Below, one piece after another: positions 25,303 through 38,527 of a DNA stretch of 64,000 nt. Below the pieces are notes generated by a model. The model had not been told where the DNA came from and did no database searches. It saw only the letters and a program-made list of their open reading frames with translations. Source of the stretch: Erwinia sp. E602 (GTDB lineage: Bacteria > Pseudomonadota > Gammaproteobacteria > Enterobacterales > Enterobacteriaceae). Location of the stretch: the NCBI RefSeq assembly GCF_018141005.1, contig NZ_CP046582.1, positions 2,852,001 through 2,916,000 of the forward strand, written 5' to 3'. Both the position numbers and the translations under genes were made by a program. Position 1 is the first letter of the stretch; the number at the start of each line of letters is the position of its first letter.

Positions 25303-26247
25303 ATGGAACTGCGCCACCTGCGCTACTTTGTCGCCGTTGCCGAAGAGCGTAACTTCAACCGCGCCGCCCGACGCCTGCATATCAGCCAGCCGCCGCTCAG
25401 CCGCCAGATCCAGCAGCTGGAGGGCGAACTGGGGGTAACGCTGTTTGAACGCGGCTGCCGCCCGCTGGAACTGACCGACGCCGGGCGTTTTTTCTTCGGC
25501 CACGCGCAGCAGTTTCTGGCGCGCAGCGTGGAGCTGAAAACCATGACCCGCCGTATCGGCCAGCTGGAGCGCAGGCTGTCGGTGGGGTTTGTCGCTTCCA
25601 CGCTGTACGGGCTGATACCGCAGCTGATACGCCGCTTTCGCCAGCAGTCTCCTGAGGTAGCGATTACCCTGCTGGAGATGTCGACCACGGAGCAGCTGCA
25701 GGCGCTGAAAGAGGGAGAGATCGATATCGGTTTTGGCCGTATTCGCTCTGAGGATGCCAGCATTCGCCGGGTGATCCTGCGTGAGGAACCGCTGATGGTG
25801 GCGGTCGCTGCCGATCATCCGCTGTGCGCCTGCTCCCCGGTAACCCTGAGCATGCTGCATGCGGAAACGCTGCTGGTCTACCCGCAGATGCCGCGCCCCA
25901 GCTTTGCCGACCAGGTACTGGCCATTTTTCGTGAACGGCGTCTGACGCCACAACGGGTGGTTGAAGTCCGTGAGTTGCAGGTCACGCTGGGGCTGGTGGC
26001 CGCCGGTGAAGGGGTGGCGCTGGTACCAGAGTGTCTGCGCAGCCTGCAGCGTCAGGACGTGCGCTATTTACCGCTGCAGGGGGCACAGCTGGTCTCACCG
26101 ATCATCATGAGTACCCGCCTGCTGGATGAGTCAGCCGATATCCGTCTGCTGGAGAGCATGATTTATCAACTCTATGCCGAACAGGGGGTCTCACCAACGG
26201 AAAACACACCCGCTGAAACAGCTAACGAACTGATAAATCATCAATAA
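25303..26247 (+). CDS. LysR-family regulator of the cat/ant genes (CatM/CatR/BenM type)
   Basis: 314 residues. N-terminal wHTH (MELRHLRYFVAVAEERNFNR, then LHISQPPLSRQIQQLEGELG) is typical of the CatR/BenM subgroup; the effector domain follows from about 90. AGGAGG precedes the ATG. Divergent position from catB makes it the probable muconate-responsive activator of catBCA-antABC and perhaps of pcaIJFD downstream on its own strand. A separate AraC-type antR, used in Pseudomonas, is not in the window. Confidence 0.88.
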   Translation: MELRHLRYFVAVAEERNFNRAARRLHISQPPLSRQIQQLEGELGVTLFERGCRPLELTDAGRFFFGHAQQFLARSVELKTMTRRIGQLERRLSVGFVASTLYGLIPQLIRRFRQQSPEVAITLLEMSTTEQLQALKEGEIDIGFGRIRSEDASIRRVILREEPLMVAVAADHPLCACSPVTLSMLHAETLLVYPQMPRPSFADQVLAIFRERRLTPQRVVEVRELQVTLGLVAAGEGVALVPECLRSLQRQDVRYLPLQGAQLVSPIIMSTRLLDESADIRLLESMIYQLYAEQGVSPTENTPAETANELINHQ

Positions 26248-26436: not shown

Positions 26437-27123
26437 ATGATCAATAAATATCTGCCGTCAGCCGGGGATGCCGTGGCTGACATTGGGGAGGGTGCCACGG
26501 TGATGATCGGTGGCTTCGGTCCGGCCGGCCTGCCCTATACGCTGGTCGAGGCGCTGATCCGCCAGCGCCCGCGCGACTTAACGGTAATCAACAATAACGC
26601 CGGTAACGGCGACGCTGGCCTGGCCGCGCTGCTCAAGGCCGGCTGCGTTCGCAAAATGATCTGTTCATTCCCACGCCAGAGCGATTCATGGGTATTTGAT
26701 GACCTGTACCGGCGCGGCGTGGTGGAGCTGGAGCTGGTGCCGCAGGGCAATCTGGTGGCGAGGATCCAGGCGGGCGGCAGCGGTCTTGGCGGTATCTTTA
26801 CCCCGACCGGCTACGGCACCGAACTGAGCGCCGGCAAAGAAATCCGGGAAATCGAGGGCCGCCACTATGTGTTCGAACTACCGCTAAAGGCCGACTTTGC
26901 GCTGATCAAAGCGCAGCGTGCCGACCGCTGGGGCAACCTGGTGTACCGCAAGGCGGCGCGCAATTTCGGCCCGATTATGGCAATGGCGGCCACCTGCACC
27001 ATCGCGGAAGTTGAGCAGCGGGTGGCGCTGGGCGATCTGAACCCGGAAGTGGTGGTGACGCCGGGCATTTTTGTCCAGCGGGTGGTTGAAGTTCCGCATC
27101 ATTTATCACGCGCAACCGCGTAA
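26437..27123 (+). CDS. pcaI: 3-oxoadipate CoA-transferase subunit A
   Basis: 228 residues of CoA-transferase family I, alpha subunit. GGFGPAGLPYTLVEAL near residue 26 and NNNAGNGDAGLAALLKAG near 52 are the glycine-rich CoA-binding motifs, and FTPTGYGTELSAGKEIREIEGRHYVFE near 110-136 is typical of PcaI/CatI. With PcaJ it moves CoA from succinyl-CoA to beta-ketoadipate. GGAGG upstream, 190 bases after the LysR gene, first of pcaIJFD. CatI would be an equivalent name here. Confidence 0.9.
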   Translation: MINKYLPSAGDAVADIGEGATVMIGGFGPAGLPYTLVEALIRQRPRDLTVINNNAGNGDAGLAALLKAGCVRKMICSFPRQSDSWVFDDLYRRGVVELELVPQGNLVARIQAGGSGLGGIFTPTGYGTELSAGKEIREIEGRHYVFELPLKADFALIKAQRADRWGNLVYRKAARNFGPIMAMAATCTIAEVEQRVALGDLNPEVVVTPGIFVQRVVEVPHHLSRATA

Positions 27124-27136
27124 AGGAGCAGCAGAG

Positions 27137-27802
27137 ATGGATTTTACCCGACTCAGCCACGATGCGCTGGCGGCACGCATCGCACAGGATATTCCCGACG
27201 GTGCGTACGTCAATCTGGGCATCGGCCTGCCCACCAGAATTGTCAATTTCCTGCCGGCCAACAAAGATATTTTCCTGCATAGCGAAAACGGCCTGCTGGG
27301 GATGGGGCCGGCACCGGAGCCTGGTCGCGAAGACCCCGAGCTGATTAACGCCGGCAAGCAGCCGGTGACCCTGCTGCCGGGCGGCTGCTTTTTCCACCAC
27401 GGTGACTCGTTCGCCATGATGCGCGGCGGCCATCTTGATATCTGCGTGCTGGGGGCCTATCAGGTCTCTGAACGGGGCGACCTGGCCAACTGGAGCACCG
27501 GCCAGCCGGGTGCCATTCCGGCGGTCGGCGGCGCGATGGATCTGGCTATCGGCGCGCGGCGGGTGCTGGTGATGACCGAACATCTGACGCGCGGCGGCGA
27601 GTGCAAGATCGTGCCGCACTGCAGCTACCCGCTGACCGGCATTGCCTGCATCCACCGCATCTACAGCGATCTGGCGGTGATCGACGTCACGCCTGCCGGG
27701 CTGGTGGTGCGTGAACTCCTTGGCGACATCAGTGAAGAACAGCTGCAACAGGTCACCCCGGTGGCGCTGACCTTTGCCCTGCAGGAGCACGCTTATGAAT
27801 AA
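27137..27802 (+). CDS. pcaJ: 3-oxoadipate CoA-transferase subunit B
   Basis: 221 residues from ATG 27137 (AGGAG upstream), 13 bases after pcaI. CoA-transferase beta subunit: the catalytic Glu is in HSENGLLGMGP (near residue 53), with GAYVNLGIGLPTRIVNFL before it and KCKIVPHCSYPLTG-like CKIVPHCSYPLTG near 155. The longer reading from 27071 overlaps pcaI and is rejected. The 3' end overlaps pcaF by eight bases. Confidence 0.92.
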   Translation: MDFTRLSHDALAARIAQDIPDGAYVNLGIGLPTRIVNFLPANKDIFLHSENGLLGMGPAPEPGREDPELINAGKQPVTLLPGGCFFHHGDSFAMMRGGHLDICVLGAYQVSERGDLANWSTGQPGAIPAVGGAMDLAIGARRVLVMTEHLTRGGECKIVPHCSYPLTGIACIHRIYSDLAVIDVTPAGLVVRELLGDISEEQLQQVTPVALTFALQEHAYE

Positions 27803-28997
27803 CGTCTTCGTCTGTGACGCCGTGCGCACGCCGTTCGGCAGAATTAACGGCAGCCTTTCCGGGGTACGCGCCGATGACCTGGCCGCCGCCCCGCTGAAAG
27901 CCCTGCTGCAGCGTTATCCCCGCATTGACTGGGCGCGGCTGGATGATGTGATCTACGGCTGCGCCAATCAGGCCGGAGAGGATAACCGCAACGTAGGGAG
28001 GATGGCGCTGCTGCTGGCCGGGCTGCCGACCTCCGTCCCCGGCAGCACGGTTAACCGGCTGTGTGGCTCCAGCCTCGACGCGGTGGCGATCGCCGCACGC
28101 ACCATTAAAAGTGGTGAGAGTGGGCTGATGATCGCCGGCGGCGTCGAGCAGATGACCCGCGCCCCCTACGTCGTCGGCAAGGCCGATAAAGCCTTTAGCC
28201 GGCAGATGAAGCTGGAAGATACCACCATGGGCTGGCGGCTGATCAACCCGCTGATGAAAAGCCTGTATGGCGTCGAGTCGATGCCGCAAACCGCCGAGAA
28301 CCTGGCGCAGCGGCTGACCATCAGCCGCGAGGATCAGGACGCCTATGCCCTGCGCAGCCAGCAGCGAACCGCGCGCGCGCAGCAGAGCGGTTTTTATGCC
28401 TCTCAGCTGGTGCCGGTATCGCTGCCGCAAAAGAGCGGCGAGCCGCTGCTGTTTGCAACCGACGAACACCCGCGCGCCACCTCGCCGGAGGCGCTGGCTA
28501 AGCTGAAACCGGTGGTCACTCCGCAGGGCACGGTGACGGCGGGCAACGCCTCCGGGCTTAACGACGGTGCCTGCGCCCTGCTGCTGGCCGGCGAGCGCGC
28601 GATGGCCGATAACGGCCTGCAGCCCGTGGTGCGCATCGTGGCCAGCGCGGTCGCCGGCGTTGAGCCGACCGTTATGGGGCTGGGCCCGGTGCCGGCGGTG
28701 CACAAGGTACTGGCGCTGAGCGGGCTGACGCTGGCACAGATGGACGTCTTCGAGCTCAATGAGGCGTTTGCCGCGCAGGTGCTGGCGGTGACCCGCACCC
28801 TCGGGCTGGCGGACGATGCCGCTGAGGTTAACCCCAACGGCGGCGCGATTGCGCTCGGCCACCCGCTGGGTGCCTCCGGCGGCAGGCTGGTGATGAACGC
28901 CGCCTGGCAGTTGCAGAATACCGGCGGTCGCTACGGGCTGTGCGCCATGTGCATCGGCGTCGGCCAGGGGATCGCGATGATTATAGAGAGGGTATGA
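27795..28997 (+). CDS. pcaF: 3-oxoadipyl-CoA thiolase
   Basis: 400 residues from ATG 27795. Thiolase family: nucleophile Cys in NRLCGSSLDAV (near residue 90), GGVEQMTRAPYV near 120, His in NPNGGAIALGHPLGASG (near 355) and the second active-site Cys in GLCAMCIGVGQG (near 388). It splits beta-ketoadipyl-CoA into succinyl-CoA and acetyl-CoA, ending the pathway. Overlaps pcaJ and is one base from pcaD, so the genes are translationally coupled. Confidence 0.94.
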   Translation: MNNVFVCDAVRTPFGRINGSLSGVRADDLAAAPLKALLQRYPRIDWARLDDVIYGCANQAGEDNRNVGRMALLLAGLPTSVPGSTVNRLCGSSLDAVAIAARTIKSGESGLMIAGGVEQMTRAPYVVGKADKAFSRQMKLEDTTMGWRLINPLMKSLYGVESMPQTAENLAQRLTISREDQDAYALRSQQRTARAQQSGFYASQLVPVSLPQKSGEPLLFATDEHPRATSPEALAKLKPVVTPQGTVTAGNASGLNDGACALLLAGERAMADNGLQPVVRIVASAVAGVEPTVMGLGPVPAVHKVLALSGLTLAQMDVFELNEAFAAQVLAVTRTLGLADDAAEVNPNGGAIALGHPLGASGGRLVMNAAWQLQNTGGRYGLCAMCIGVGQGIAMIIERV

Positions 28998-28998
28998 G

Positions 28999-29754
28999 AT
29001 GACGATTGACTACCGGCTGGAAGGGGCGCACGACGCCCCGCTGCTGGTGTTGTCCAACTCGCTGGGCACCACCTGGGATCTGTGGCAGCCGCAGATCGCT
29101 ACCCTGATCACCCATTTCCGCGTGCTGCGTTACAACCCGCGCGGCCACGGCCACAGCCCGCTGCCGGGCCAGGTACTGACCCTGGCGCGGCTGGGCCAGG
29201 ACGTGGTCGACCTGCTGGACGAGCTGGGGGTGGAACAGGCCAGTTTTTGCGGCATTTCAATGGGCGGCCTGACCGGGCTGTGGCTGGCCCGTTACCATCC
29301 GCAGCGCTTCCGGCGCATGGTGGTAGCGAATACCGCCGCGCGCATCGGCAGCGCCGAAGGCTGGCAGCAGCGAGCGCACCAGGTGCTCGACGAGGGGCTG
29401 GGTCAGGTGGCGGCCGGTGCCGCCGCCCGCTGGTTCACGCCGGACTTCCTCGCCGCCGCCCCGCCGCAGGCCGGCCGGCTGATCAGACAGCTGGCCAACA
29501 GTAATGTGGCCGGCTATGCCGCCTGCTGCGGGGCGCTGGCCACCGCCGATCTGCGCAAAGAGGTCAGGCGGATCCTGCTGCCGCTGCTGGTGATCGCCGG
29601 CGAACAGGATCCGGTGACCACCGTTGAAGATGCGCGCTGGCTGCAGAGCCAGATCGCCGGTGCCGAGCTGGCCGTGCTGCCGGCCTCGCACCTCTCCAAC
29701 GTGGCCTGCCCGCAGACCTTCAGCAACGCGGTCTGCCAGTTTCTTACCCGCTGA
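28999..29754 (+). CDS. pcaD: 3-oxoadipate enol-lactonase
   Basis: 251 residues, alpha/beta hydrolase. Oxyanion segment [12 protein letters not shown] near 17-28, nucleophile elbow CGISMGG (Ser near 88), the acid in [12 protein letters not shown] (near 200) and a His in [11 protein letters not shown] (near 235) give a full triad. It hydrolyses the enol-lactone made by CatC to beta-ketoadipate. Its 3' end overlaps the convergent dcyD end by 11 bases, so the cluster is inserted tightly against the flagellar-region genes. Confidence 0.92.
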
Positions 29755-31415: not shown

Positions 31416-32138
31416 TCAGCGCGCTCCCGTTAACCGGGCGCGCAGGCGTTTAATCGCCTGACTGTGCAGCTGGCTGACGCGGGACTCGCCCACTTCCAGC
31501 ACGGCGCCAATCTCTTTCAGGTTCAGCTCTTCCTGGTAATAGAGCGTCAGCACCATCTTCTCGCGTTCGGGCAGGGCCTCGATCGCTTCGATGACGCGTT
31601 CACGCAGGTTCCCTTCCAGCAGCTGGTGCAGCGGGTTAGCCTGTTCATGGCCGTCGGTGACCAGTTCCGCGCTGTCGCCGTGCTCCTCACGATATTCGTC
31701 ATAGGAGAACAGCTGGCTGTTGTTGGTATCCAGCAGGATCTGCCGGTACTCCTCCAGCGGCACGTCCAGCTGGGCAGCGACTTCCTGCTCGCTGGCCGGG
31801 CGGCCAAGGACCTGTTCAACCTGATGCATCGCCGCCGCCACTTCGCGGGCGTTGCGTCGCACGCTGCGCGGTGCCCAGTCGCGGCTGCGCAGCTCGTCGA
31901 GCATCGCCCCGCGAATGCGCTGTACGGCGTAGGTGGTAAAGGCCGTACCCTGCAGCGCGTCGTAGCGCTCAACCGCATTCAGCAGGCCGATGCCGCCGGC
32001 CTGCAGCAGGTCATCCAGCTCCACGCTGGCCGGCAACCGCACCTGCAGGCGCAGCGCTTCATGGCGTACCAGCGGAACGTATCGCTGCCACAGCGAATGC
32101 TTGTCCATCACCCCATCGGCGGTATAGAGATCGTTCAC
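31416..32138 (-). CDS. fliA: Flagellar sigma factor FliA (sigma-28)
   Basis: 240 residues co-linear with E. coli FliA, including region 2 (DDLLQAGGIGLLNAVERYDA and FTTYAVQRIRGAMLDELR), region 3 and region 4 (NLKEIGAVLEVGESRVSQLHSQAIKRLRARL). GTG start at 32138, as in E. coli. It directs RNA polymerase to class 3 flagellar promoters such as those seen before fliC and fliD in this window. The GT41 gene lies immediately upstream on the same strand, separated by a hairpin and the fliA promoter region. Confidence 0.97.
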   Translation of the reverse strand: MNDLYTADGVMDKHSLWQRYVPLVRHEALRLQVRLPASVELDDLLQAGGIGLLNAVERYDALQGTAFTTYAVQRIRGAMLDELRSRDWAPRSVRRNAREVAAAMHQVEQVLGRPASEQEVAAQLDVPLEEYRQILLDTNNSQLFSYDEYREEHGDSAELVTDGHEQANPLHQLLEGNLRERVIEAIEALPEREKMVLTLYYQEELNLKEIGAVLEVGESRVSQLHSQAIKRLRARLTGAR

Positions 32139-32297: not shown

Positions 32298-35200
32298 TTA
32301 AGCCGGGATAAATTTAAATTTCTCCAACAGCTTTTCGAGCTTAACGACATCAATCTGTGGCTTCAGGGTAAATACGCCTGCCGTTTCCGCTTTATCCACC
32401 ACATTGAGGAACTCCAGCACCACGTGGTAGTCAGGGCGGTCCCAGAAATCATGAATAAAGATCTGCGTCACGGCGTTATTCCTGCGGGTGGCCAGCGTGT
32501 GTTTAATCGCATTCAGGGTACAGGCGACGCGGAAACGCCCGTCAACCAGAATCAGATCAAACCACCGCTGATGTTGCAGAATCGCCTCGCTGTAGAGCGG
32601 GAATTGCTGCTGATGGCTGGCATCCACCGGATAGCCCCACTCTTTGGTCGGCCCGATATCGACGTAATCGACCTTACACAGCGGACCGGCCTCTTTTGCC
32701 AGCGTGTCGACCCAGAATTTGTCACTCTCCACGCCGTAGACGGTGACGTTATTGCGCGTCGCCAGCTTGGTCGAACCGCCGCTGCCAAACTCATAATAGG
32801 CGCTGCTCTGAGTAATGCAGCGCTCAAACAGCGCGGTTTCCGCCGCTGACATACGCGGCATTTCCGGGATGATGTTTACCGGGGCTGGCACAGCGGCAGG
32901 CGACGAGGCCGGCGGCGCGGTATCGTGGAAGTCACCGAGATAGGCCTCGGCACGTGCAGTCGAGCTGACCTGCAGCACCTGATACGCCACGTCACGCAGC
33001 TGATAACCGGCGTGCAGGATAAACGCCAGCTTCTCGCGCTGCTCCACGCTCATGGCCGCAATACGCTCTGCGGTGGGAACAAACAGCAGGCGCGTCGCCA
33101 CCATCTGCGAAGAGGCCAGCGTGCTGCCGTCCGCCAGCGGCAGCGCAGCGCCCTGCTCTGTCGCGGCAACGCTGTGGAAGCGGAAGCCGTAGCCGGCCAG
33201 CGCCGCCTCCAGCTGGCTGAAGGACATCTGGCCGGCGTGGGTGTTGGCAAAGGTATAATGTACGCTGACAAACAGGCAGCCGGTTAACAGCCGCGAACCG
33301 TGCTCGAAGACCGGTTGCAGATTCAGCGTATTGCTGATTTCAAACCACTCGAGGCGATCGAGTCCGTTAATCTCATCCAGCCTGCTCGACGGCACCTTCA
33401 GTTCGGTAATCACCTTCTGGCCCGCCCAGGCCTCATCCCCCTGTTCGCCGCCGATGGCGGGCAGATCGCTGCTGTAACGCGAATCAAGGCACAGATAGAG
33501 CGGAGCCTCCTGGCCGTCACCCAGCAGGTGCAGTTTGATATGCTGCAGGGATTTCTTACGCAGCGGCAGATGTTGCGGCTCCACCACACCGACCGGATCC
33601 ATAATCACCGCGTGAACCGCATCGGTGGCGACCAGGTCGATAAACGCAGCAGCGCGGCTGAACTGGCCGCCGTAGTCCATCATCAGCACCTTGCCGGAGA
33701 GCTGGAACTCAAAGGTATCCGCCTGGCCGGGCTGGGTCAGCTTCTGTGATTCCATCACCGGCGGATGCTGCAGCGTCACCGGCTGCCCGTCGTCGAGGAA
33801 GTAAGGTGCGCCCTCTTCCTGCAGCGTCAGCGCCGCCGGTGCTTTACCTTCGCAGTAGCGCTGCCAGATCGCCCGCATGGCGTCCGAGAAGTGTCTGGCA
33901 AAGCGCTGCCCGTCGCACACCGGCGAAGCCAGCAGAATATCGCGCAGATGCTGGCGAATCACCGCCAGGCTGGTGAGATCGCGGGTGATGCCAACGGTAA
34001 TATCGATGTACTGCTGCCAGCTGTCGGCCACCAGCTCCGGCATGCCGGCATTGACCAGGTGAGAAGCGGAGTGACGTCCGGCAAACGTTGGCCCTGGCAG
34101 GGTCACCACCGGCACGCCCATCGCCATCGCTTCACAGGTGGTCAGGCCGCCGGAGTACGGCCACGGGTCGAGCGCGATGTCCACCCGGTTATAGCTGTCC
34201 AGCAGCTCACGGTGCGGCGAGGAACCTTCCAGCAGCACCCGCTCACGCGCCACCCCGTGGCGTTCCAGCGTGCTCAGCACCCGCTCGCAAAGCGTTGGGT
34301 TTTTAAAGTTAAAGCTTTTCAGGAACAGGCGGGAGTCCGGCACGCTGTTCAGTATGATCGCCCACTGCTCCAGCAGAGTATCGTTAATCTTGGCGGCGTT
34401 ATTAAAACAGCCAAAGGTGATATAGCCGTTTTCCGTTACCGGACCGGCGCTCAGCGGCGGCAGGTAGTGCGGCGGATCGTAACAAATATAGTCACCGGGC
34501 AGACGGATCAGTTTTTCACTGTACAGGTGGTCGACGCCCTCAGGTGTTTCAATACCGTCGCTTAACAGATAGTCCATGCCCTCAAGGCCGGTACTGCTGA
34601 TCAGCCCGCCAACCCATTTAATCTGTAACGGCGCGGGCTGCTGCTGTAACGTCAGCATCCGACTGTTTGCATTATAGCCACAGAGGTCGAAAAGAATATC
34701 TATCTCATCGTCACGAATTAATCCGTCAACCGCATTATCCGACAGCCCGTCAATCACCTGCCATTTTTTAGCAATGCGCTGAATACGGTAGGTAATATGG
34801 TCTTCGATGTGGTTAGTGCTGTAGGCATAAAGCTCAATCTGTGAATCCGGAATATGTGATAAACCCAGGGTGATCATATTCCCGACCGGGTGCGAGCGAA
34901 ACCCTTCTGAAATCATGCCAATACGTAACGGTTTATCGGCTGTCCGATTCTTCGCCACCGCACGTTTAATTGTACGAGACGGGCGAAATACCTGCTGCCA
35001 TTGCTGGCAAATATCCAGAATGGATTCAGGTGTAGCAGCCGGGTTATAGTGCGATCCGACAATGCGGTTAAACCAGGAAGAGGGGTTATCAGAGGAGAGC
35101 TGGCAGCTTTGCTGATAGGCGGCATCCATTTTATCGAATTCGGCCAAATCCTGGTAAATCATACCGAGGTTGCTCCAGTTACGCCAGTTGGTCGGGTCTT

Positions 35201-35654
35201 CCCGGGTCAGCTGGGTATACTCCTCTATCGACTGTTCATACTTTTTCTGCTTTTGCAGGATCGTCGCCCGCAGGGTGCGCAATGGCCGTGATTCATCATC
35301 GTTTACCCGACCGATCGCCTCCGCAAGGAATATTTCTGCCTCATCAAAACGTTCGCGGACGTATAACAGGTTAGCCTTAGCGTAAAGCGCTTCGCTGTAA
35401 TCAGGGGTCAGCGTCAGGGCTTTTTCAACCGCTTCCTCAGCGTCAAAATATTTACCCAGTTTTTCCCAGGTGCGTGAGGCAACCACCCAGACCAGACTGT
35501 TATGCGCATTTTTTTTCAGCAGCGGCGTAACAATGGCTAACGACTCCTGCGGCTTTTCACTCAGTATTTCCATCGCGCGCCGAAGTTGCGCAGCCACGGC
35601 GGGGTCGGTTGCAGGGGGGGTAGAGAGAGCAGAACCAGAGGTGGACTTCTTCAT
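32298..35654 (-). CDS. TPR / GT41 (OGT-type) glycosyltransferase fused to methyltransferase-like domains; probable flagellin modification enzyme
   Basis: 1118 residues, cytoplasmic. Residues 20-200: TPR repeats (for example YSEALYAKANLLYVRERFDEA). Residues 243-605: SPINDLY/O-GlcNAc-transferase-type GT41 with the base-like His in GFRSHPVGN (255), Lys in CFNNAAKIND (422), UDP-sugar loop DPWPYSGGLTTCEAM (496-510) and RHSASHL (527-533). Residues 650-870: a segment like FkbM methyltransferases (SSRLDEINGLDRLEWFEI) but with no clear SAM glycine loop. Residues 936-1100: class I methyltransferase-like domain (YEFGSGGST 954-962, VYGVESDKFW 972-981, LILVDGRFR 1034-1042). Sitting between fliA and fliC, it probably O-glycosylates flagellin and methylates the sugar. 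Partner and sugar are inferred, not shown. Confidence 0.82.
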   Translation of the reverse strand: MKKSTSGSALSTPPATDPAVAAQLRRAMEILSEKPQESLAIVTPLLKKNAHNSLVWVVASRTWEKLGKYFDAEEAVEKALTLTPDYSEALYAKANLLYVRERFDEAEIFLAEAIGRVNDDESRPLRTLRATILQKQKKYEQSIEEYTQLTREDPTNWRNWSNLGMIYQDLAEFDKMDAAYQQSCQLSSDNPSSWFNRIVGSHYNPAATPESILDICQQWQQVFRPSRTIKRAVAKNRTADKPLRIGMISEGFRSHPVGNMITLGLSHIPDSQIELYAYSTNHIEDHITYRIQRIAKKWQVIDGLSDNAVDGLIRDDEIDILFDLCGYNANSRMLTLQQQPAPLQIKWVGGLISSTGLEGMDYLLSDGIETPEGVDHLYSEKLIRLPGDYICYDPPHYLPPLSAGPVTENGYITFGCFNNAAKINDTLLEQWAIILNSVPDSRLFLKSFNFKNPTLCERVLSTLERHGVARERVLLEGSSPHRELLDSYNRVDIALDPWPYSGGLTTCEAMAMGVPVVTLPGPTFAGRHSASHLVNAGMPELVADSWQQYIDITVGITRDLTSLAVIRQHLRDILLASPVCDGQRFARHFSDAMRAIWQRYCEGKAPAALTLQEEGAPYFLDDGQPVTLQHPPVMESQKLTQPGQADTFEFQLSGKVLMMDYGGQFSRAAAFIDLVATDAVHAVIMDPVGVVEPQHLPLRKKSLQHIKLHLLGDGQEAPLYLCLDSRYSSDLPAIGGEQGDEAWAGQKVITELKVPSSRLDEINGLDRLEWFEISNTLNLQPVFEHGSRLLTGCLFVSVHYTFANTHAGQMSFSQLEAALAGYGFRFHSVAATEQGAALPLADGSTLASSQMVATRLLFVPTAERIAAMSVEQREKLAFILHAGYQLRDVAYQVLQVSSTARAEAYLGDFHDTAPPASSPAAVPAPVNIIPEMPRMSAAETALFERCITQSSAYYEFGSGGSTKLATRNNVTVYGVESDKFWVDTLAKEAGPLCKVDYVDIGPTKEWGYPVDASHQQQFPLYSEAILQHQRWFDLILVDGRFRVACTLNAIKHTLATRRNNAVTQIFIHDFWDRPDYHVVLEFLNVVDKAETAGVFTLKPQIDVVKLEKLLEKFKFIPA

Positions 35655-35744
35655 AGGGCCATTTACCTTGATAAGTTTCGCTGTACGTCAGAGGCCGTGC
35701 CCCGCCATACCGCCACGATATTACCAGTGTAAATAACGCAAAAA

Positions 35745-35777
35745 AAAATAACGGGTATAATACCCGCTATTTTTTAT
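35745..35777. terminator. fliC terminator (bidirectional)
   Basis: CGGGTA (35752-35757) and TACCCG (35761-35766) stem with A/T flanks that pair further; on the minus strand it is followed by eight T, 40 bases after the fliC stop. It separates fliC from the GT41 gene, which must therefore have its own promoter or rely on readthrough. Confidence 0.85.
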
Positions 35778-35805: not shown

Positions 35806-36699
35806 TTACTGCAGCAGAGACAGCACGCCCTGTGGAACCTGGTTAGCCTTGGTCAGTACTGAAGTACCGGCCTGCTGCAGGATCTGCGCGCGGCTCATGT
35901 TAGACACTTCGGTCGCGTAATCCGCGTCTTCGATACGGCTCTTAGCAGCGGTGATGTTGGTGATGGTGCTGCTCAGGTTGTTAACGGTAGATTCGAAACG
36001 GTTCTGGCTGGCACCCAGGCTGCTACGCAGTGAGTCAACGTCAGAAATCGCTTTATCCAGAGCAGACAGCAGGTTGGAATCAACTGTAGCTTTAGCTTCG
36101 CCAGTAGTGGTCGCGGCAGTATAAGTTTTCAGGATACCAACACCCGATGCAGCACCAGTAGATGCTTCAGTGATGGCAGTGAAACCTGCTGCTGTAAACA
36201 GTGTGGAAGAATCGATTTTCTTCAGTGAAATGCCGATGGTTTCTTTATCCTGCGCACCAACCTGAATGTTCAGAGTCTGAGCGGTAGCCAGTACTTTGAT
36301 GCCGTTGAAGCTGGTTTGTTTGGAGACACGGTCAATTTCTTTAACGCGGTCAACGATTTCGTTGTTGATTGACACCAGGTCATCAGCAGAGTTACTACCG
36401 TTGTTCGCCTGTACGGTCAGTTCACGGATACGCTGTAAGTTGGTGTTGATCTCGTTCAGTGCGCCTTCAGTAGTCTGAGCGATGGAGATACCGTCGTTGG
36501 CATTACGGGAAGCCTGAGTCAGACCTTTAACCTGAGAAGTCATACGGTTAGCAATCGCCTGGCCCGCTGCATCGTCTTTTGCGCTGTTGATACGCAGACC
36601 AGATGACAGACGCTCAATCGCTGAGCCCAGGGAAGACTGTGACTTGTTCAGATTGTTCTGAGTAGTCAGGGACATAATGTTGGTATTGATAACGGCCAT
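35806..36699 (-). CDS. fliC: Flagellin FliC (short form)
   Basis: 297 residues. Conserved D0/D1 N-terminus ([40 protein letters not shown] near 30-50) and C-terminus ([20 protein letters not shown] near 250-270, ending PQGVLSLLQ). The central variable region (about 170-205) is very short and Thr/Ala/Ser-rich ([14 protein letters not shown]), so D2/D3 are nearly absent. Short flagellins like this are often glycosylated on Ser/Thr in that region, and the neighbouring GT41 protein is a likely modifier. A sigma-28 promoter lies upstream. Confidence 0.95.
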
Positions 36700-36772: not shown

Positions 36773-36799
36773 TTATCGGTTGAGTTTTTCCTAACTTTA
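36773..36799 (-). promoter_or_regulatory. Sigma-28 promoter of fliC
   Basis: On the minus strand TAAAGTTA (36799-36792), 11 bases, then ACCGATAA (36780-36773): nearly the full FliA consensus, about 75 bases before the fliC ATG. Confidence 0.93.
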
Positions 36800-37020: not shown

Positions 37021-37047
37021 TAAACTTCTGCCCACGATGGCCGATAT
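37021..37047 (+). promoter_or_regulatory. Sigma-28 promoter of fliDST
   Basis: TAAACTTC (37021-37028), 11 bases, then GCCGATAT (37040-37047), close to the FliA consensus and 34 bases before the fliD ATG. The rest of the 382-base fliC-fliD spacer is AT-rich and holds no gene. Confidence 0.9.
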
Positions 37048-37081: not shown

Positions 37082-38527
37082 ATGGCGAGTATCAGTAGCC
37101 TTGGGGTAGGCACCACCCTTCAGTTGGATACCCTCTATACCAACCTGGAAACTGCTGAAAACAGCAAGCTGACAACGATCACCAAGCAGCAGACCAGCTA
37201 TAATTCGCAGCTTACCGCTTACAGCAAGCTGCAAAGCTCAATGACCGCCCTGCAGACCGCGACCGCGGCGCTGGCGAAAGCCAGCACCTTTAGCGCCTCC
37301 AGCGTCACCAGCACCAATACCGCCTTCGCCGCCACCACCGATGCGAACGCCACCGTTGGTGATTACAGCGTTTACGTTGAGCAGGTAGCCAAGGCGCAGT
37401 CGCTGATTTCAGGATCTATTGCCAGCAAAACCAGCCAGCTGGGCGACAGCGCCAGCGGCACGCGCACGCTGACCATCACCCAGCCCGGCACCACCAAGCC
37501 GCTGGAAATCACCCTGAGCAACAGCCAGACCACGCTGACCGGCATTGCCGATGCGATTAACAAAAGCGCCGGTAACGTCAGTGCCACCATTATTACCGCC
37601 AGCAACGGCGACCACCGCCTGATGCTGAGCTCCAAGACTACCGGCACCGACGGCGATATTACCCTGAGCGTTACCGGCGACAGCACCCTGCAGGGGGTGA
37701 TTGGCTATGACGCTACCGCCACCGGCACGCAGAATATGTCGGTACAGACGGCTTCGCAGAACGCCAAACTCAGCGTTAACGGCGTTGCTATGGAGCGCAG
37801 CAGCAACACCATCAGCGATGCGCTGACCGGTGTGACCTTCAACCTGAAGGCCGCCAGCACCAGCGCCTCGGGTGAAACCCTCAGCGTGACGCGTTCGGTC
37901 GACAGCACCACCACCGCGGTCAAAGCCTGGGTTACCGCCTACAACAGCCTGCAGTCCACCATCGCCTCGGTCACCAAATACACCGCGGTCGACGCCGGTG
38001 AAGATCAGTCCAGCAGCAACGGCGTACTGCTCGGTGACAGTACGGTGCGCACTATTCAGACCCGCCTGGCCGGGATGCTGAGCAACGTACAGAGCGGCTC
38101 TTACGCGGTGCTTTCGCAGCTGGGGATCACCACCAACCCGACCAAGCAGGCGGACGGTTCAGTCGGTGCGCTGAGCATTGATGACACCAAGTTAACCGCC
38201 GCGCTGACCAATAACCCGCAGGCGGTCAGCGATTTCTTCGTTGGCGACGGTACGAAGACCGGCTTTGCCACCCAGATGGGCAGCACGCTGACCGATATGC
38301 TCAGCACCAGTTCCGGCAAAGAGGGCATTATCAAAAATGCTCAGGACGGCATCAACGCCACCCTGAAAGATCTCGACAAGCGCTACACCGCGATGGAGGC
38401 CAGCATTGAAGTGACCATGGCGCGCTATAAATCCCAGTTTACTAACCTCAGTAAATTAGTGAACTCGCTGACCAACACGTCTAACTATCTGACGCAGCAG
38501 TTTGAATCGTCCTCCTCTTCAAGCTAA
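37082..38527 (+). CDS. fliD: Flagellar filament cap protein FliD
   Basis: 481 residues. N-terminal FliD_N (SISSLGVGTTLQLDTLYTNL, near 3-22) and C-terminal FliD_C (near 235-470, with ending coiled-coil RYKSQFTNLSKLVNSLTNTSNYLTQ compressed). Thr/Ser-rich throughout. It forms the pentameric cap that folds exported flagellin. First gene of fliDST with its own sigma-28 promoter, divergent from fliC as in E. coli and Salmonella. Confidence 0.95.
   Translation: MASISSLGVGTTLQLDTLYTNLETAENSKLTTITKQQTSYNSQLTAYSKLQSSMTALQTATAALAKASTFSASSVTSTNTAFAATTDANATVGDYSVYVEQVAKAQSLISGSIASKTSQLGDSASGTRTLTITQPGTTKPLEITLSNSQTTLTGIADAINKSAGNVSATIITASNGDHRLMLSSKTTGTDGDITLSVTGDSTLQGVIGYDATATGTQNMSVQTASQNAKLSVNGVAMERSSNTISDALTGVTFNLKAASTSASGETLSVTRSVDSTTTAVKAWVTAYNSLQSTIASVTKYTAVDAGEDQSSSNGVLLGDSTVRTIQTRLAGMLSNVQSGSYAVLSQLGITTNPTKQADGSVGALSIDDTKLTAALTNNPQAVSDFFVGDGTKTGFATQMGSTLTDMLSTSSGKEGIIKNAQDGINATLKDLDKRYTAMEASIEVTMARYKSQFTNLSKLVNSLTNTSNYLTQQFESSSSSS

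Follow-up and report, generated by a model that had tools for sequence, protein, structure and literature searches.

A predicted one-gene island for flagellin glycosylation and glycan methylation between fliC and fliA of Erwinia sp. E602

A fusion gene in the flagellar locus

The flagellar locus of Erwinia sp. E602 was analysed in a stretch of 64,000 nucleotides (contig NZ_CP046582.1, positions 2,852,001 to 2,916,000; hereafter the window), in which the minus strand carries, in order, fliC, a single fusion gene and fliA. An earlier note, made from the letters of the window alone, had described this gene as one frame of 1118 residues that joins tetratricopeptide repeats (TPR), a glycosyltransferase of family GT41, a middle segment and a methyltransferase tail, and Pfam and phmmer searches confirmed this architecture. 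Our reading, to which we assign a probability of about 0.62, is that the gene is a predicted one-gene island for glycosylating flagellin and methylating the resulting glycan.

Several TPR families exceed the Pfam cut-off in the fusion protein, and the GT41 model (PF13844) scores 138.5 bits where 25 would suffice, placing the protein in that family. No Pfam family starts past residue 612 at E <= 1. In a broader protein search 1505 of 7960 scored candidates matched the fusion protein at E <= 1e-3, the best 120 of which were inspected. A full-length model from a 63-row alignment (mean predicted local distance difference test score 87.5) comprises 12 helices in the TPR region, the glycosyltransferase domain and two further alpha/beta domains. 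The earlier note had staked its reading on finding GT-B and methyltransferase folds; the predictions gave a GT-B fold for the transferase and a methyltransferase-like fold for the middle domain, and the tail is homologous to the methyltransferase-like protein 3cvo.

The flagellar linkage that the note had pointed to extends to relatives. We surveyed 80 loci, the best of 155 relatives recovered with two exact peptide patterns and sorted by how well they match the protein of the window, a ranking that favours close full-chain relatives; six loci (L001-L006) were left out because they were the window's gene itself or duplicated other loci. Upstream of the GT41 gene, 78 of the 80 have a gene for flagellin, and the two loci lacking one (L044 and L090) start at most 320 bp from a contig end. 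The gap between flagellin and GT41 gene is at most 700 bp in 75 of 77 measured cases, and six of these genes for flagellin are encoded on the other strand. At one locus, from Candidatus Pantoea haifensis (L073, 5161-9776), three flagellin-like frames adjoin the GT41 gene, whose open frame has no TPR part. Across a family sample of 198 genomes, 17 gave a GT41 match at E <= 1e-50, and full-length relatives occur in four of these, the window's own included; BLAST did not detect the middle domain in the other 13, whose GT41 we assign to a more distant group.

The note had considered such a chain unusual for enterics, which the literature corrects. De Maayer & Cowan (2016; PMC4875605) report, in the sections cited here, SPINDLY-type GT41 enzymes encoded by inserts that separate fliC from fliA in enterobacteria, on islands of as little as one protein, with a methyltransferase domain in all but eight enzymes of type GT41-11. 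As these islands were published for 194 strains, the fusion as such is already known, and the present GT41 gene, inserted at the same site with a methyltransferase domain on the same chain, belongs to this type of island. The cited sections contain no account of a degenerate FkbM middle domain, tail swapping, sulfotransferase tails or a link to short flagellins, and a literature search, mostly of open journals and main texts, did not find the degenerate FkbM middle, a sulfotransferase-bearing tail repertoire or the short-flagellin link. The dead middle domain and the varied tails of relatives, described below, seem to be new details.

Table 1. Features of the fusion gene and its surroundings (window coordinates)
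Feature	Position	Strand	Basis
Fusion gene, 1118 aa, TPR - GT41 - pseudo-FkbM - class I methyltransferase	32298..35654	-	ATG frame
TPR region, residues 18-222	34989..35603	-	Pfam TPRs; 12 helices in model
GT41 catalytic domain, residues 241-612 (H255, K422, K446, Y500)	33819..34934	-	
Middle domain, residues 613-910, degenerate FkbM methyltransferase	32925..33818	-	Homology, eroded motifs, methyltransferase-like fold
C-terminal class I S-adenosylmethionine (SAM) methyltransferase module, residues 930-1118	32301..32867	-	3cvo match, conserved motif residues
Codon 471, mosaic breakpoint relative to P0002	34242..34244	-	
fliC, 297-aa flagellin, probable substrate	35806..36699	-	Pfam flagellin N and C
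fliA, flanking	31416..32138	-	Sigma-70 regions 2-4
fliD, flanking	37082..38527	+	About 50% identical to congener's FliD
Sigma-28 (FliA)-type promoter match ahead of fliC	36773..36799	-	2 mismatches to consensus
Terminator-like 15-pair stem and T run between fliC and fusion gene	35743..35775	-	

Scanning the window with the sigma-28-type consensus gave two matches (0.18 expected). A weaker match (3 mismatches) lies at 37021-37047 ahead of fliD; none was found ahead of the fusion gene. The terminator scan returned six sites overall, with 4.7 expected by chance. Near the fliA region, positions 26437-29754 hold putative genes for CoA-transferase subunits, a thiolase and a lactone hydrolase, which we take to be a beta-ketoadipate set, with a LysR-type gene at 25303-26247.

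The GT41 domain and its sugar donor

Arabidopsis SPINDLY (SPY; 7y4i, 8dtf-8dti) is the closest solved protein both by sequence (7y4i, phmmer, 299.6 bits) and by fold, ranking first in a Foldseek search (E 5.8e-38), although it has no methyltransferase domains. Conservation was assessed in 63 aligned relatives, a set chosen for the full chain including a methyltransferase tail like the window's. His255 and Lys422, which the earlier note had picked out as GT41 motifs, are the same in all 63 and correspond to H495 and K665 of SPY, the latter described as essential in the passage cited (PMC9715652). Donor choice in SPY depends on K689, A731 and Y744 according to the part of PMC10027727 used here, and these correspond to K446, S487 and Y500 of the fusion protein. 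K446 and Y500 are identical in all 63 relatives, and in 60 of them position 487 holds Ser, Ala, Thr or Cys, a small residue replacing R904 of O-GlcNAc (O-linked N-acetylglucosamine) transferase (OGT). The domain therefore has the SPINDLY-type features, namely a guanine-reading lysine, a small residue for OGT R904 and a tyrosine near the sugar; it differs from SPINDLY at Leu504 (63/63), where SPINDLY has T748.

The UDP-sugar loop that had been proposed for this domain is not supported: the key residues are SPINDLY-like, yet neither of the two GDP-sugar families searched was found in the genome. The best match to GDP-mannose 4,6-dehydratase (gmd) reaches 57 bits against a cut-off of 415 and a profile search with the GMP_PMI model gave zero matches, salvage and other routes lying outside this search. 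GDP-fucose, which K446 and Y500 had suggested as the donor, is thus unsupported by the genome. Both rmlB and rmlD are above cut-off, making dTDP-rhamnose a possible donor in this organism. We extended the survey to the source genomes of 40 loci out of the 80, of which 39 were obtained: gmd is above cut-off in 15 of the 39, rmlD in 26 of 40 (the window's genome added), and 9 of the 39 (completeness not stated) have neither, so that dTDP-rhamnose is probably no general donor. A universal nucleotide sugar would fit the gmd and rmlD counts best. For the enterobacterial islands, the cited sections of PMC4875605 propose GlcNAc derivatives and allow a wider specificity.

Middle domain, tails and mosaic structure

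The middle domain, present in 80 of 80 loci, is homologous to 12 intact FkbM sister modules, whose motifs DIGANPIDG, FEPQ and IDIQGGE are eroded in the 78 middle domains compared. At the IDIQGGE positions I775, Q776, G778 and E779 are kept in 0/78 and G777 in 3%; N664 survives in 6% of the domains and P665 never does. Pfam gave zero matches in any of the 78 members and a sequence search of the PDB failed to identify the domain directly; its assignment to FkbM comes from the predicted fold together with the sister modules, and bears out the earlier description of an FkbM-like degenerate segment. The domain might still bind SAM and methylate in an altered way, which would make the chain a double methyltransferase: remnants of motif I survive (Asp660 in 97%, Gly662 in 85% of middle domains), an acidic Asp686 is present in 78/78 and G712 and G714 are invariant. 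The almost complete loss of IDIQGGE, N664 and P665, and an identity of relatives to the window's middle domain of 23-49%, make such activity improbable in our estimate, and the domain is apparently a dead FkbM enzyme.

The C-terminal module is of the 3cvo type rather than FkbM. Residues 930-1100 match 3cvo (E 4.6e-15; E 3.5e-16 in a search with the C-terminal module), a solved chain of 202 residues that corresponds to this module alone and has no known function. The YEFGSGGST motif that the earlier note had read as SAM-binding-like is present, with E955, G957, G959, G960 and S961 identical in 63/63 relatives, as are E976, D978, D1038, R1040, R1042, H1068, D1069 and W1071; the glycine-rich motif I and the acidic residue after the second strand that mark class I SAM methyltransferases are thus found in all 63. 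We conclude from these residues that the module is intact, and predict it to be active. Its target could be a lysine or other side chain of flagellin itself rather than the sugar, the chain then placing two separate marks. Such an arrangement would recall the flagellin lysine methylase FliB and an SmtA methyltransferase, whose genes occupy this chromosomal position in other enterobacteria according to PMC4875605 (sections cited), and would be compatible with a tail that has no Pfam match and for which the one solved relative found has no assigned function. The same position in other chains holds sulfotransferases, FkbM modules and glycosyltransferases, many of them sugar-acting, and this argument, which is one of enzyme class only, leads us to regard protein methylation as unlikely and methylation of the sugar as the preferred reading.

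Tail classes were assigned in the 80 loci with 16 seed modules. The 3cvo-type methyltransferase, in two subtypes, is the sole module found in 27 tails; 8 carry GT2 types only, 4 GT2 with FkbM, 3 FkbM only, 3 sulfotransferases only and 17 other kinds and combinations, with 3 unassigned. No module was found in 15, of which 13 are clean cases, L044 ending at the contig edge and L020 having a broken frame with a match continuing to residue 1116 (frames are also interrupted in L073 and in L096, one of the unassigned tails). Overall, a methyltransferase or FkbM module occurs in 45 loci, a further glycosyltransferase in 21 and a sulfotransferase module in 12. Pfam searches of 65 tails gave FkbM in 15, GT2 in 13, Sulfotransfer_3 in 9 and GT56 in 5.

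The gene is also mosaic. Relative P0002 shows many differences from the window's protein up to residue 471 and then only two (822 and 920). Within the fusion gene the G+C content of third codon positions (GC3) shifts from 0.565 to 0.749, with the best change point at codon 393 (about 34476; log-likelihood gain 19.6, permutation p 0.002), 78 codons from the P0002 breakpoint. Ten other frames of the window, some of which are not real genes, gave gains of 1.5 to 7.8, four of them nominally significant (p 0.005 to 0.045), so that the unevenness of the fusion gene is the strongest but not unique. GC3 is 0.55 in fliC versus 0.80 in fliA and 0.77 in fliD, and because of this and the P0002 pattern fliC and the first part of the fusion gene look like one acquired block.

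A scan of domain distances, from which P0105, L044 and L073 were left out, turned up 112 pairs among the relatives in which one region is at least 0.93 identical and another at most 0.75, many of them explained by different tails or fast change of the TPR region. Where both halves of the glycosyltransferase domain are at least 0.93 identical (P0091 also left out), all 21 pairs that share a tail have a middle domain at least 0.83 identical, whereas its identity falls below 0.83 in 13 of the 21 pairs whose tails differ. These comparisons are not independent of one another, and if the broken L020 is scored by the tail it has lost, this moves the pair P0025-L020 from the different-tail to the same-tail group. 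The middle domain thus appears to change along with the tail often, though not always. Joint travel of TPR region and flagellin, expected from the mosaic structure and base composition, was not supported by a partial Mantel test over 76 loci that controlled for the C-terminal half of the glycosyltransferase and the middle domain. In the partial Mantel analysis the middle domain tracks both ends of flagellin (r 0.46 and 0.38); the N-terminal half of the glycosyltransferase weakly tracks the flagellin centre (r 0.19).

Flagellin as the probable substrate

The flagellin encoded next to the fusion gene is short, as the earlier note had stated, and probably too short for the usual D2/D3 domains; the Thr/Ser-rich centre also claimed for it is only weakly apparent (residues 143-211; see below). 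Flagellin length was compared across 79 genomes of the family, each from a different genus; a flagellin match is present in 47 of them. Assuming that genome labels are identical across the GT41 and flagellin searches, the best-matching flagellin frame is at most 310 residues long in 6 of 6 genomes with a GT41 match versus 5 of 41 without (one-sided Fisher p 4.3e-5), or 3 of 39 when two flagellin fragments (G028, G072) are removed (p 1.0e-5), values that are uncorrected for shared ancestry. In five of the six the GT41 belongs to the distant group, and a flagellin gene lies within about 8 kb on the same contig; in one genome, G071, the GT41 frame of that group contains a stop codon. The association lends support to flagellin and transferase forming a set. 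In a genome of the same genus (G119), a 492-residue fliC adjoins fliA with no insert, and FliA is 91% identical to that of the window versus about 50% for FliC. FliD of a congener (L111, 9827-11302) is likewise about 50% identical to the window's, and given the 91% for FliA the filament cap and flagellin seem to have changed jointly. Elsewhere in the same genome (G000:C2:3601167-3601571) a flagellin-like match, 61% identical over 135 residues and within a 650-residue open frame, is possibly a second flagellin.

Two published systems bear on the reaction. An O-GlcNAc-transferase-like gene, Dda3937_03424, lies between fliA and fliC in Dickeya dadantii, and mutants of the cluster's two glycosyltransferase genes have flagellin of lower mass, with motility reported as unaffected; the cited passage (PMC6637903) also gives a flagellin of 28890 Da that it does not assign to either mutant. 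That cluster has six genes including sugar-modifying enzymes, versus one gene here. FlmG of Caulobacter crescentus, which O-glycosylates flagellin in the cytoplasm and whose TPR domain binds flagellin, resembles the fusion protein by description in its N-terminal TPR and C-terminal GT-B domains; unlike it, FlmG has 596 residues, uses pseudaminic acid and, in the passages cited, is described with neither a middle domain nor a methyltransferase tail (PMC7591256).

The earlier note had instead looked to GmaR of Listeria as its GT41 precedent. The GmaR transferase belongs to family GT2. The excerpt of the source that we used gives the order glycosyltransferase, TPR, antirepressor and names no glycosyltransferase family, and we dropped this precedent; FlmG and Dda3937_03424 are, in our judgement, the better ones. 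GmaR does unite transferase and antirepressor roles, and eukaryotic GT41 enzymes have many intracellular targets, so one might suppose that the fusion protein is a GmaR-like regulator or modifies a flagellar regulator or another cytoplasmic protein. We regard this as very improbable, given the linkage to flagellin genes across many genera, the short-flagellin association and the drop in flagellin mass in the D. dadantii mutants; moreover, the fusion protein, ordered TPR, GT41, methyltransferase-like domain and methyltransferase, does not have the GmaR order.

We therefore retain flagellin as the predicted substrate and propose the following course. The TPR half would bind flagellin in the cytoplasm, as reported for the TPR domain of FlmG, and the GT41 domain would move a sugar from a nucleotide donor onto serine or threonine of the short flagellin before export, a step that we infer from homology, linkage and the D. 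dadantii precedent. The former FkbM domain, its motifs eroded, may act as a structural coupling piece, and the C-terminal class I methyltransferase would O-methylate the newly added sugar. Because the same core carries different tails in relatives, the tail probably sets the final decoration.

Several points weigh against this reading. Modification of flagellin in this organism is predicted from genes alone. The full-length model has a predicted template modelling score of only 0.61, which renders its arrangement of domains unreliable. The SPINDLY-like K446 and Y500 conflict with a genome that has no gmd or GMP_PMI match, and the nine relatives' genomes with neither gmd nor rmlD add to the difficulty over the donor. 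The flagellin centre is just mildly rich in serine and threonine (26% versus 23% overall), and in the partial Mantel test the TPR region did not follow the N end, C end or centre of flagellin (r 0.038, -0.028 and 0.061; p 0.27, 0.68 and 0.10).

More tentatively, and as a proposal whose parts are to be taken together, the gene may represent a widespread set of modular flagellin-decorating enzymes, in Gamma- and Betaproteobacteria according to record titles. These would share a constant core beside flagellin (TPR, SPINDLY-type GT41 and a catalytically dead FkbM), followed by up to three variable tail modules, methyltransferases, FkbM, glycosyltransferases or sulfotransferases, with recombination at both ends. 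The dead FkbM would couple core and tail and often change with the tail, the flagellin-reading and decorating halves would be exchanged separately, and a single gene would alter the chemical surface of the filament.

Flagellin is the surface met by hosts, phages and grazers. That a donor can be read from SPINDLY-type residues alone becomes questionable where, as here, those residues occur without the two searched GDP-sugar families. A dead methyltransferase kept between two live enzymes would exemplify a pseudoenzyme serving as a coupling piece, and the broader modular enzyme set behind the fusion gene merits study. If a single exchangeable chain both adds and finishes the sugar, purified chains would offer a simple system for multi-step cytoplasmic synthesis of protein O-glycans, and the decoration of a filament would be predictable from the tail module in the genome.

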